From positions 992,001-1,056,000 of the forward strand of contig CP011392.1 in the NCBI GenBank assembly GCA_001005265.1: a stretch of 64,000 nucleotides of DNA. Reading direction: 5' to 3'. Source of the stretch: Dehalogenimonas sp. WBC-2 (GTDB lineage: Bacteria > Chloroflexota > Dehalococcoidia > Dehalococcoidales > Dehalococcoidaceae). This document shows, one piece after another, positions 30,479 to 37,915 of this stretch (position 1 is the stretch's first letter; every line of letters begins with the position of its first letter). Made by a program: the position numbers and the translations under genes. The notes under the pieces are model-generated. The model did no database searches, was not told the origin of the DNA, and saw only the letters and a list, made by a program, of their open reading frames with translations.

Positions 30479-30578
30479 CTATGTAGCTTGCTATTACTAA
30501 CCAATTACCGTAGTTATGGTTGACACTGTGGCCGCGTAAAACTAAAATGGCCTTAGAAGTTATCGTTTGGAGGGTTTA

Positions 30579-31760
30579 ATGAAGCTGATAGTGGTTGGAT
30601 TAGGCCAAGCTGGCAGCCGAATAGCTGATGAATTCGCCCGTATTAATAAAAGGGCGCAGAGCCAACGCGGCATTGAAATATGCCCAGGAATTTTTGCCGT
30701 CAATACCGACGCCGCCGATCTCACCGGGCTCACCACCATTGAACCGGATTATCAGCATCGGATTTTGATCGGAGGACGCAAAACCGGCGGTCATGGCGTC
30801 GGCAAGATCAATGAACTCGGCGCAGAGGTAGCCCGGGCTGATGCTGACAAAGTTATCGACGCCTTAAGGAGCGCCCGTCACTTCTATGAAGCAGATGCTT
30901 TTCTTCTGGCAGCCAGTTCTGCTGGCGGCACTGGTTCCGGCTCTATTTCTATCATCGCCCAACGCATAAAAGAGCGCTATCCTGACAAGCCTCTCTATTC
31001 ACTGCTGGCGTTGCCTTTTGAACATGAACGAGACACTGAAGAGCGGGCCTCCTACAACTCAGCTGTCTGCCTCAAATCTATTTATTCTATCTCAGACTGT
31101 GTGTTTCTTGTTGATAATCAGCGCTATGTTATGAAGGACGCATCACTAGGCAACAACATGTCACGCATCAATGAGCTTATTGTTGAACCATTTTATGATT
31201 TGTTGTGCGCAGGTGAGGAAAAAAATCCAAAGTTTATCGGTGCCAAGACTTTGGATGCTGGCGATATTATCCAGACTCTTTCCGGATGGTCAGTTTTGGG
31301 TTCAGGTCAATCCGACCTCAGTAAATCATTCAGTTTATTTGAACGCAGCACTGACTTCCGTAAAAAAACTTCCGAGACTCACAGAGGTATCCAGGCCATG
31401 GATGAAGCCATCAGTGAAATGTCATTAAAGTGCAATCCCAAGGACGCCGGACGCGCTATATATCTGGTTTCAGCACCGGCCAAAGAAATGAACATGGACA
31501 TGATGCGGGAACTTAATGAATGGATGCGGGAGTTATGTCCCAATGCCATTATCCGAAATGGTGACTATCCCCGCGGCTCCAACAGATTGACCGTAACTGT
31601 CATTCTTTCCGAACTCTCCGACGTGGAAAGAGTCCGAAACTTCTACTCCGATTCTCTGAGCCTGATCCCGATTATTAAACAACGCCAAGTGGAATTACGT
31701 CACAAGCTTGAAGATATAAACGATATGGGCAAAGATATCCCTTCGCTTCTGGAAGACTAG
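30579..31760 (+). CDS. tubulin/FtsZ-superfamily GTPase (not canonical FtsZ)
   Basis: 393 aa from the ATG at 30579, preceded by GGAGGG. The tubulin signature AGGTGSG (residues 115-121) matches the G-box consensus, and the N-terminal VVGLGQAGSRIADEF is the first nucleotide loop. The possible T7 loop is RINELIVEPFYDLL. It lacks FtsZ's usual GGGTGTGAAP and its C-terminal FtsA/ZipA-binding tail; it more resembles CetZ- or TubZ-like groups. GTP-driven polymerisation is known for the superfamily; a role in cell shape or DNA segregation is inference. Terminated just downstream and transcribed alone. Confidence 0.85.
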   Translation: MKLIVVGLGQAGSRIADEFARINKRAQSQRGIEICPGIFAVNTDAADLTGLTTIEPDYQHRILIGGRKTGGHGVGKINELGAEVARADADKVIDALRSARHFYEADAFLLAASSAGGTGSGSISIIAQRIKERYPDKPLYSLLALPFEHERDTEERASYNSAVCLKSIYSISDCVFLVDNQRYVMKDASLGNNMSRINELIVEPFYDLLCAGEEKNPKFIGAKTLDAGDIIQTLSGWSVLGSGQSDLSKSFSLFERSTDFRKKTSETHRGIQAMDEAISEMSLKCNPKDAGRAIYLVSAPAKEMNMDMMRELNEWMRELCPNAIIRNGDYPRGSNRLTVTVILSELSDVERVRNFYSDSLSLIPIIKQRQVELRHKLEDINDMGKDIPSLLED

Positions 31761-34685: not shown

Positions 34686-35804
34686 TTATTTTGTCAGGTC
34701 GTGCTTCATTTTAATATATTGCAGCAAATCAGCTCTGGACACGAATCCCTTAAAAACATCGTTCTGCAGTACTGCTACTTGGTTGAACCCTGTCGACTGC
34801 AATAATTCAAAAGCCGTCATTAGTTCATCTTCCGGAGACACTGCCTGTACTTCACTTATCGGGGTCATTATTCTAACTATAGTTTCATGCGGCCATGACT
34901 CTTTGGGCACTTTCTTTACATCAGTCAAACTTAACAATCCGGCCATTTTCCCATTGACGATGACGGGTAGCGCACGCTGCGCATGTCCCAGCATCATCGT
35001 CATGGCTTGTTCTATTGTCAGATCATCCGTCGCTGTTGCAACAGAATACTTGGATATCTCTTTAACTTTGGTGCCCTTCAAGGATTCTGAGAGTATCGAT
35101 TGCTGATAACTAGCCGTCGCTGCCGAAGCCAGGAACCAACCGATGAGTGCCAGCCATAACCCACTGATACCGATGACAAAAGCCAGAGCGATACCGCCAA
35201 AGATTAATATATAGGCAATTACCTGACCGGTACCGGCGGCAATTTTTGTAGCCTTAGCTTCATCATTGCTGATCTTCCACAAGATAGAACGGAAAACCCG
35301 GCCGCCGTCCAGCGGGAATCCAGGTAGAAGATTGAAAACGCCAAGTACCAGGTTGATTTGAGCCAGGTAAATAACCACGGCGTTGAGTGCTGTAGCCTCC
35401 CGTCCGGTAGCAAAGAAAATCAAAAAAAGCAGGCCGGAGAGGATAAAACTAACTAACGGTCCGGTCAACGCCATCCGGAATTCTGCGCCCGGAGTCTCAG
35501 CTTCTTTGGTGATGTTAGAGGCGCCACCAAAAATAAAAAGGGTAATATTCTTGACCGGAATACCGTTGCGCATGGCAATAATAGAGTGGCCAAGTTCATG
35601 AGCCAGCACCGAAACAAATAAACTCAAGGAAGCCACAATCCCGAGAAGCCAATAGACAAAGGTGTCACGACCAGGTAAAACAGTCTCCAGAGGAAAATAG
35701 CCTTCCGCCAGCGACCAGGTTAAAAAGACAAAGATGAACAACCACGAGATATGAACATCAATTTCTATACCAAGAATTCGCCCCAAGCGGAACGATGACC
35801 GCAT
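34686..35804 (-). CDS. site-2 protease (M50) with CBS pair, paralogue 1
   Basis: 372 aa. About six membrane helices hold the metalloprotease motifs LAHELGHS and GFPLDGGRVFR; residues ~245-365 form two CBS repeats (VNGKMAGLLSLTDV; LQNDVFKGFVSRADL) that usually bind adenine nucleotides. Such proteases cut substrates within the membrane, often to release a regulator. Paralogous to the gene at 36.8-37.9 kb; a GreA-like gene lies between. AAGGAG before the ATG. Confidence 0.9.
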   Translation of the reverse strand: MRSSFRLGRILGIEIDVHISWLFIFVFLTWSLAEGYFPLETVLPGRDTFVYWLLGIVASLSLFVSVLAHELGHSIIAMRNGIPVKNITLFIFGGASNITKEAETPGAEFRMALTGPLVSFILSGLLFLIFFATGREATALNAVVIYLAQINLVLGVFNLLPGFPLDGGRVFRSILWKISNDEAKATKIAAGTGQVIAYILIFGGIALAFVIGISGLWLALIGWFLASAATASYQQSILSESLKGTKVKEISKYSVATATDDLTIEQAMTMMLGHAQRALPVIVNGKMAGLLSLTDVKKVPKESWPHETIVRIMTPISEVQAVSPEDELMTAFELLQSTGFNQVAVLQNDVFKGFVSRADLLQYIKMKHDLTK

Positions 35805-35827: not shown

Positions 35828-36640
35828 CTATTCTATGGCTTCTATCGTATACCGAAACGTATAGGCCGGCGCCACTACCTCAATGGTTTCGCCGATAGTC
35901 CGGCCTATTAGCGCCTTACCGATGGGAGAGGCAGGGGAAATTCGCCCACTCTTGGGATTCACTTCCCTGGGCATCACCAAAGTATAGACGCAAATTGCGC
36001 CCGTAGCTAATTCTTTCATGGTGATACAGCGGCCAAGTTCAGCTTTATTGCCAGCTGCATAATTATGTTCGCTATCTATGACCGCGTGTTTCAATAAAGT
36101 GGCCAATTCCTCGATTTTACCATCCAGCTTGGCTTTTTCCTCTCTGGCCGCATGATAGGGGGCATTTTCTTTAAGATCCTTGTCTGCCGCGGCACGTTTA
36201 ATGTCGTCCAGAATGTGAATACGTTTTTCTTTTAGCAGTGCCAGTTCGGTTTCTAGTTCGTTCTGCTTTTCCGGGGTTAAGACCAGCTTATCTACACTTG
36301 CCGATCTTCGGGCAGTTCCAGCTACTTTTACAGGTGTCCTTTTAATCTTCAAGTGAGTGCTCATGCTAGTCTCTGTCCAACCCTGCTTACCAAAATAAAG
36401 AAACAAATCCTTTACTGTTCTAAGTTTAGAAGCCGCTTCTTCACCAGCGGGTTGCCCTGATGCATATTCTGACAACTTGAGCGCTGAAAGAGTGCCCACC
36501 GACTTATCGCCACCATACCAGCGGACAAAATTCATTATCGCAGGCGTAACCGACTCTCTCTTTGCAGCAGATAGTGAAGCCAGATAACGCAAGGCAGCGT
36601 CAACAAGTGTCGAAGGTTGATTGCTTTTTTCCGAAGTCAT
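35828..36640 (-). CDS. GreA/GreB-family factor with an N-terminal recombinase-like domain
   Basis: 270 aa, about 110 longer than GreA. Residues ~120-270 are a complete Gre protein: coiled coil with the acidic tip DKDLKENAPYHAAREE (D155 and E158 in the positions that stimulate RNA cleavage) and the FKBP-like end SPIGKALIGRTIGE. Residues ~10-100 resemble the SAM-like core-binding domain of tyrosine recombinases (ALRYLASLSAAKRE, TPAIMNFVRWYG, KLRTVKDLFLYFGKQGW). No integrase catalytic domain is present. ATG preceded by AGAGGA. Role as elongation factor is likely; the added domain may bind DNA. Confidence 0.85.
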   Translation of the reverse strand: MTSEKSNQPSTLVDAALRYLASLSAAKRESVTPAIMNFVRWYGGDKSVGTLSALKLSEYASGQPAGEEAASKLRTVKDLFLYFGKQGWTETSMSTHLKIKRTPVKVAGTARRSASVDKLVLTPEKQNELETELALLKEKRIHILDDIKRAAADKDLKENAPYHAAREEKAKLDGKIEELATLLKHAVIDSEHNYAAGNKAELGRCITMKELATGAICVYTLVMPREVNPKSGRISPASPIGKALIGRTIGETIEVVAPAYTFRYTIEAIE

Positions 36641-36756
36641 TTATTCCTCTTTTCTAATTTCGCCAATACACCCGGCCATAAACTTGTTAATTATTGCTTA
36701 AAGACACACTGCTTTTATTATATCAGCGCTCACAAAACCATAGTACTTATCAGTAT

Positions 36757-36802: not shown

Positions 36803-37915
36803 CTAAGCCTGATTCTGTGCAGCACTCTTCATTTTTTGGTTTACCAGATCCACCAGACTATCTAGAAACAACAAACCTCGCTGTCCATTATGACCGATTA
36901 CCACCGCAAAATCTTTATCAGTCTCATTGAACTCCTGGACAACAGTCAATAAACCCGTTTCAGAAGTAATCTCAAGAGCCGCCTCAATCGGTTGAGACAA
37001 TTCTTTTATGGCTTTTACTCCGGCTAAATCTCCAGCTTCAGATAATAATAATACACCGGCAGTCTGCCCATCTTCTTCCACCCAGAAACTGCGGCAATTG
37101 GGATATTGCTGCTTTAACTCTTTAGTAGTAAGACCGCCTCTGACAATAGGGCAGTCCCAATTCGTTACATCTGAAATGTTCCAGCCTTTAAGCCAAAGTT
37201 GCATTTCAAACTGTTTAAGACTGGTACGGGCAGAGTATTCCAGGTATAAGCCGATTACCGCCAGCCATATTCCAGCCAGCCAGTCACTATAGTAAATGAT
37301 GAAATATGCCCCTGCACCAACAATAATAAAACCGAATATCCTGCCGATAAAGATGGCAACCCTGGTGGCCTTTTCGTAGTCATGACGGAAATGCCACCAT
37401 AATCCCCGAAATATCCTTCCGCCATCCAGAGGAAAACCCGGCAGCATATTAAAGACGGCAACGATCAGATTTATCTGACTCAGCCACAGAGCTATGGCCG
37501 CCAAGACATTTACAGTGCCCAGAAAATAATAATAGGTGCCATAAAACACTGCCGCCAACACCAGACTGGTCATCGGTCCGGCCAGCGCCATTTTTAATTC
37601 TGCCGCCGCCGTTTGAGGTTCACGAGTCATCTGCGCGGCTCCACCAAATAGAAACAGGGTGATACTCTTCACCGGTATACCGTTGTTTTGTCCAACCAGG
37701 GCATGCGCCGCTTCATGAAAAAGAACTGAAAGAAAAAACAGCAGCGCGGTCACTGCCCCCATCACCCAGAAGGTAACATCGGTTTCTTTTGGGACAGCAC
37801 CGGGAAATACCTGCAAGGCCAGAAAAACGGTAATTAGAAAGTAAATAAATACCCAGGAATAATGAATCCTAAACTGGATGCCAAAGATTCTACCGAAATT
37901 AAATCCGTTATCCAA
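36803..37915 (-). CDS. site-2 protease (M50), paralogue 2
   Basis: 370 aa from a TTG start, 6 bases after the thiC stop. Motifs LFHEAAHALVG and GFPLDGGRIFRG sit in about six membrane helices. The C-terminal ~120 residues correspond to the CBS region of the first paralogue but are much diverged and keep no clear CBS pair. Same fold and topology as the gene at 34.7-35.8 kb, so an old duplication. Confidence 0.88.
   Translation of the reverse strand: MDNGFNFGRIFGIQFRIHYSWVFIYFLITVFLALQVFPGAVPKETDVTFWVMGAVTALLFFLSVLFHEAAHALVGQNNGIPVKSITLFLFGGAAQMTREPQTAAAELKMALAGPMTSLVLAAVFYGTYYYFLGTVNVLAAIALWLSQINLIVAVFNMLPGFPLDGGRIFRGLWWHFRHDYEKATRVAIFIGRIFGFIIVGAGAYFIIYYSDWLAGIWLAVIGLYLEYSARTSLKQFEMQLWLKGWNISDVTNWDCPIVRGGLTTKELKQQYPNCRSFWVEEDGQTAGVLLLSEAGDLAGVKAIKELSQPIEAALEITSETGLLTVVQEFNETDKDFAVVIGHNGQRGLLFLDSLVDLVNQKMKSAAQNQA

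Follow-up and report, generated by a model that had tools for sequence, protein, structure and literature searches.

Gre factors are usually regarded as minimal proteins of two domains, which diffuse to RNA polymerase. The core-binding (CB) domains of recombinases generally contact specific DNA half-sites, and the SAM-like folds to which they belong often serve as protein-interaction modules. The acids D41 and E44 at the tip of GreA are needed for transcript cleavage (PMC7527559). As the precedent of Gfh1 demonstrates, the tip acids by themselves are no proof of cleavage activity (PMC4598747). A fusion of a CB domain and GreA was not found described in the open-access literature that we searched.

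We analysed a window of 64,000 nt from Dehalogenimonas sp. WBC-2 (contig CP011392.1, positions 992,001 to 1,056,000), and all positions in the following refer to this window unless a contig is named. The ORF on the minus strand from 36640 to 35828 (270 aa) is a genuine fusion of a recombinase-type CB domain and GreA. It was defined from the ORF list and its translation, and orthologues of the same architecture are present family- and order-wide. A preliminary description had located a fused ORF at 35828 to 36640; these coordinates are exact, and the strand is minus.

The ORF starts with ATG (36640), and GAGG, the likely ribosome-binding sequence, was read 6–9 nt before this codon (36646..36649, minus strand). 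One may argue that the N-terminal extension is an artefact of the gene model, and that the real protein is a GreA of ~150 aa translated from an internal start. In Dehalococcoides-like genomes (genus g2; loci L010, L011 and L012) the Gre boundary indeed coincides exactly with an internal ATG. Stationary-phase cells of Dehalococcoides mccartyi CBDB1 contain GreA (cbdbA743) that is strongly acetylated at K17 (PMC7918482). This K17 fits a residue count that begins at the boundary Met (MTASGYKKLEDELGILK), and the annotated D. mccartyi GreA therefore probably omits the CB domain. The fusion may thus have been overlooked in Dehalococcoides, where the published GreA numbering is consistent with a start at the internal Met, and the boundary ATG of genus g2 together with the K17 numbering suggests either that the gene model is truncated or that a short isoform exists. 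In the WBC-2 gene, however, the internal starts closest to the CB/Gre boundary, ATG 93 and TTG 97, both lie within the CB domain, and no site comparable to the well-placed GAGG of the full-length ATG was read before the internal ATG (Met93). A wrong-start N-terminus was rejected for the WBC-2 protein because of these positions. Moreover, the N-terminal domain is conserved at the protein level with ~30% identity across the phylum and has a confident fold, so that we regard an artefact as highly improbable.

The fold of the N-terminal domain is open from sequence alone and was settled by profile-profile and structure comparison. A Pfam scan of the single WBC-2 sequence assigned no family to residues 1–104, the N-terminal domains of a few relatives gave weak matches to Phage_int_SAM (best 8e-4), and an HMM of 24 N-terminal domains retrieved chance matches only from the PDB. 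AlphaFold2, supplied with 66 natural sequences, modelled helices at residues 12–22, 25–42, 53–62, 67–86 and 93–96 with high confidence; the linker behind them, at 103–116, is disordered (pLDDT < 50). When the modelled domain was compared to the PDB by Foldseek, ranks 1–22 were all CB domains of phage integrases, and the next match had a probability of 0.08. The best match was 3nrw (TM 0.75), and lambda integrase (1z1b) reached ~0.7; the E-values are modest (best 6e-3), and the case rests on the unanimous ranking. Alignment by hhalign to independently gathered XerC/XerD-type CB domains, which had been collected via PF00589 hits, gave a probability of 94.5 and an E-value of 8e-8 over 94 columns. 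A profile built from Gre fusions only produced 225 hits among the loci in hand, namely 209 Gre fusions, 15 tyrosine recombinases and one protein in which a recombinase-like N-terminus is joined to another domain, versus 0 hits in the reversed-sequence control. Among the whole-genome matches that were fetched with this profile, every protein either was a Gre fusion or had a recombinase-type CB region.

The preliminary description had proposed a SAM-like recombinase domain at residues ~10–100, to be checked by profile comparison with phage-integrase N-terminal domains, and had considered that this part might lack a fold match. The hhalign result is such a profile match, the integrases at the top of the Foldseek ranking provide the fold match, and together with the HMM retrieval they place the CB (SAM-like) domain at residues ~10–104 (36329..36613, minus strand). 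The catalytic domain PF00589 (R..HxxR..Y) had no Pfam match in the fusion protein, which, judged by its domain content, is not a recombinase. A basic flexible linker with a net charge of +3, delimited by pLDDT and charge count, connects the CB domain to the Gre half (residues 105–118; 36287..36328, minus strand).

The Gre half is complete. The coiled-coil domain comprises residues 119–188 (36077..36286, minus strand), with modelled helices at 123–151 and 160–185, and GreA_GreB_N (PF03449) matches at residues 120–188 with an E-value of 4e-16. The globular C-terminal domain that binds RNA polymerase comprises residues 198–270 (35831..36049, minus strand; GreA_GreB, PF01272, E 2e-19). Both Pfam matches are above the gathering score. 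PDB sequence matches of the fusion protein are GreA and Gfh1, and the Gre half matches GreA, GreB and Gfh1 by sequence or fold (Foldseek E ~1e-9). The protein misses the NCBIfam equivalog cut-offs for GreA (121.1 versus 145 bits for NF001263, 118.4 versus 139 for TIGR01462), which reflects divergence, since the domains are present.

Alignment to GreA of E. coli K-12 identified the catalytic tip DKDLKENAP (residues 153–161; 36158..36184, minus strand; tip sequence AAADKDLKENAPYHAARE), in which D155 corresponds to E. coli D41 and E158 to E. coli E44. This agrees with the earlier view that residues ~120–270 form a full Gre factor with catalytic acids. The Gre half should act as GreA, as far as its residues tell, and the canonical DLKEN-like tip argues against an anti-cleavage role of the Gfh1 type for the WBC-2 fusion.

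A separate canonical greA, which had also been considered, is not present in the WBC-2 genome (1.73 Mb, 99.75% complete): it encodes one Gre C-domain and one Gre N-domain, and both are in the fusion gene. The fusion takes the place of the ordinary GreA. The same genome encodes two DksA/TraR zinc-finger proteins in frames of 135 and 211 aa (C1:233400-233504 and 506042-506143; L394 and L395), which are candidates for other secondary-channel factors.

Far from being a local oddity, the fusion has been conserved in much of the phylum Chloroflexota. It is present in 11 of 11 genomes of the family. In the order sample 126 of 151 genomes gave a match, and by row count ~116 of these have one unbroken frame across both domains. 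The phylum sample included 27 class-mates from other orders, 26 of which have the CB domain, and fusions were verified in at least 16 Chloroflexota families outside the class. The relatives that can be identified by name belong to the Dehalococcoidales and the Dehalococcoidia. A genome scan with the single protein yielded no match; a scan with an alignment found loci but selected on the tip DKD..EN.P. In a phylogenetic tree, 58 of 60 Gre halves from fusions formed one clade (support 0.98), and the clade was recovered with 56 of 60 (support 0.94) when the tip columns were removed. Two fusions of distant families, L183 and L191, are the outliers. We rejected a phage origin: no phage record spans 80% of the protein, and of the listed matches nearly all cover the Gre part only.

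Other arrangements were also observed. Two genomes of genus g58, G089 (C33:135-578) and G097 (C36:54149-54595), have only a standalone Gre of ~160 aa and no fusion, a possible case of loss of the CB domain within the order. L299 and L313 from the Chloroflexota family f131 are proteins of ~480 aa that end in an active-tip GreA; their N-terminal region of ~230 aa is a different one and contains, as judged by eye, a GIY-YIG-like stretch (VLYVGSTPDSIGRRV) that has no match in Pfam. By their domain layout these two proteins represent a second type of Gre fusion within the Chloroflexota. L013, from a genome of the same genus (G008), combines an SF1 helicase and an MTES_1575 nuclease domain with a terminal GreA/GreB C-domain (E 9e-11); a function in conflict or defence is probable.

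Many genomes of other orders contain a second, standalone Gre, and the tip acids of both kinds of protein were compared. The counts were made without the loci L063–L142, whose scan had selected on the tip DKD..EN.P. The acid pair is kept in 93 of 94 fused proteins, and the remaining one reads D..D. The pair is intact in none of the 38 standalone Gre proteins from fusion-bearing Dehalococcoidia genomes. In other fusion-bearing classes the tip is D..D in 26 of the 39 other Gre copies and D..E in five, and only one or two of these five resemble real Gre tips. For 30 genomes free of the fusion, standalone copies were sampled via the C domain, and D..E was found in 19 of 27. Ranking by PF03449 instead gave D..E in 29 of 29, but this set is biased to canonical tips and the C-domain-ranked set was used.

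Our data demonstrate that the intact acid pair goes with the fused protein wherever the fusion exists. Since the pair is intact on the fusions and mostly lost or altered in the coexisting standalone proteins, cleavage is probably the work of the fused protein where it is present. A Gfh1-like role of the standalone proteins does not follow from their loss of acids, as Gfh1 retains its own (PMC4598747). The acid pattern offers a ready test for a division of labour, with cleavage performed by the fused copy and other functions by the standalone one.

The residues of the CB domain bear on what it binds. Its net charge is +5 in WBC-2, with a median of +6 over 202 proteins, and K or R occupies positions 77, 85, 98, 100 and 101 in 92–100% of the fusion sequences. 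The conserved basic residues lie where helix 4 begins and in the tail, as in the CB domains of recombinases. A T and a Y in the second CB helix are invariant in the recombinase alignment; the corresponding columns of the fusion family, assigned via hhalign, are mostly E/K27 and S/V31. With these hallmark residues replaced, DNA contact of the recombinase type may be lost. Residues F38, R40, W41, G43 and Y59 are conserved specifically within the fusion family.

This pattern could be read to mean that the CB domain is now a protein-protein module that has given up DNA binding and contacts either RNA polymerase, e.g. at a lineage-specific insert close to its secondary channel, or a different factor. 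The unconserved T and Y, the family-specific residues and the general use of SAM-like folds as interaction modules are in line with this reading, but the domain and its tail are consistently basic with near-invariant K/R positions, and we consider it rather unlikely. The integrase fold match and the half-site contacts made by recombinase CB domains would fit a specialised anti-conflict factor, distinct from a general GreA, that is directed to special DNA sites or structures such as stalled forks, Holliday junctions or damaged DNA. The hallmark CB positions are, however, unconserved, and as the sole Gre of the WBC-2 genome the protein must also do the general work, so that this specialisation appears improbable. 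From the residues, a role of the CB domain as a DNA tether is most likely ahead of a protein-binding role, although without certainty.

No link to transcription or recombination was found in the gene neighbourhood, in which thiC, M50 proteases and an FAD oxidoreductase recur; such neighbours give no functional hint for the fusion. M50 (site-2-protease-like) peptidase genes at 34686-35804 and 36803-37915 (minus strand) lie on either side of the gre fusion, in the same orientation. The former encodes CBS domains and starts 24 nt past gre. Further away in the window, the gene at 30567-31760 (plus strand) encodes a bacterial CetZ-like tubulin (Pfam: Tubulin E 5e-32, CetZ_C E 8e-20) and adjoins a gene for glyceraldehyde-3-phosphate dehydrogenase.

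We lean towards the view that the fusion is the GreA of its lineage, with the CB domain serving as a DNA tether beside RNA polymerase. According to this model, the CB domain of an ancestral tyrosine recombinase was joined ahead of GreA once or nearly once, and the fusion would have been inherited vertically over much of the Chloroflexota. Because the CB domain is N-terminal to the coiled coil, the known geometry of GreA would place it outside the secondary channel on its flexible basic linker, and a linker length of ~15 residues would bring nearby downstream DNA within its reach. There it may grip the DNA beside the polymerase, probably non-specifically and probably at the downstream duplex, which would increase the local concentration or dwell time of the factor on stalled complexes. 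Standalone paralogues, where present, would be non-cleaving or altered channel-binding regulators. The earlier proposal of a factor held at DNA, or of a new role at RNA polymerase, is plausible. More tentatively, and with somewhat less than even confidence, we suggest that a section of the phylum rebuilt its main rescue factor with a recombinase-derived DNA clamp, while the ordinary GreA was lost or became non-cleaving.

If this model holds, transcript cleavage would be coupled to direct DNA contact, and the fusion would represent a previously undescribed, DNA-tethered class of secondary-channel factor. A conserved, vertically inherited fusion of this kind in a core transcription factor would mean that cells can anchor the rescue of stalled polymerase to DNA. 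The fusion also shows that a domain of mobile-element enzymes was adopted for housekeeping. The fusion is a widely conserved new architecture of a known factor, and the mechanism is partly supported.

Among the known systems, the TPR-GreA/B-C-PIN conflict proteins also join Gre to other domains, but with the C domain only, and the available part of their description mentions no CB domain (PMC8195603). The long GreA families PRK06330 and PRK14720 of NCBIfam are Gre fusions like that of WBC-2, but with different partner domains. Gfh1 of Thermus and Rv3788 are precedents for a non-cleaving second Gre, and the standalone proteins of the Chloroflexota may play such a part; Gfh1 retains acidic tip residues, whereas these standalone proteins have lost or altered them (PMC4598747). 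The CB domains of XerC/XerD and phage integrases (PF02899/PF13495; 3nrw, 1z1b) have the same helical fold as the N-terminal domain of the fusion, but in the fusion no catalytic recombinase domain follows, and the invariant T and Y are missing. GreA of E. coli (PDB 1grj; TIGR01462/PF03449+PF01272) shares with the fusion a complete coiled coil, the globular domain and both tip acids, and to this known factor the fusion adds ~118 N-terminal residues that comprise the recombinase-type CB domain and the basic linker.
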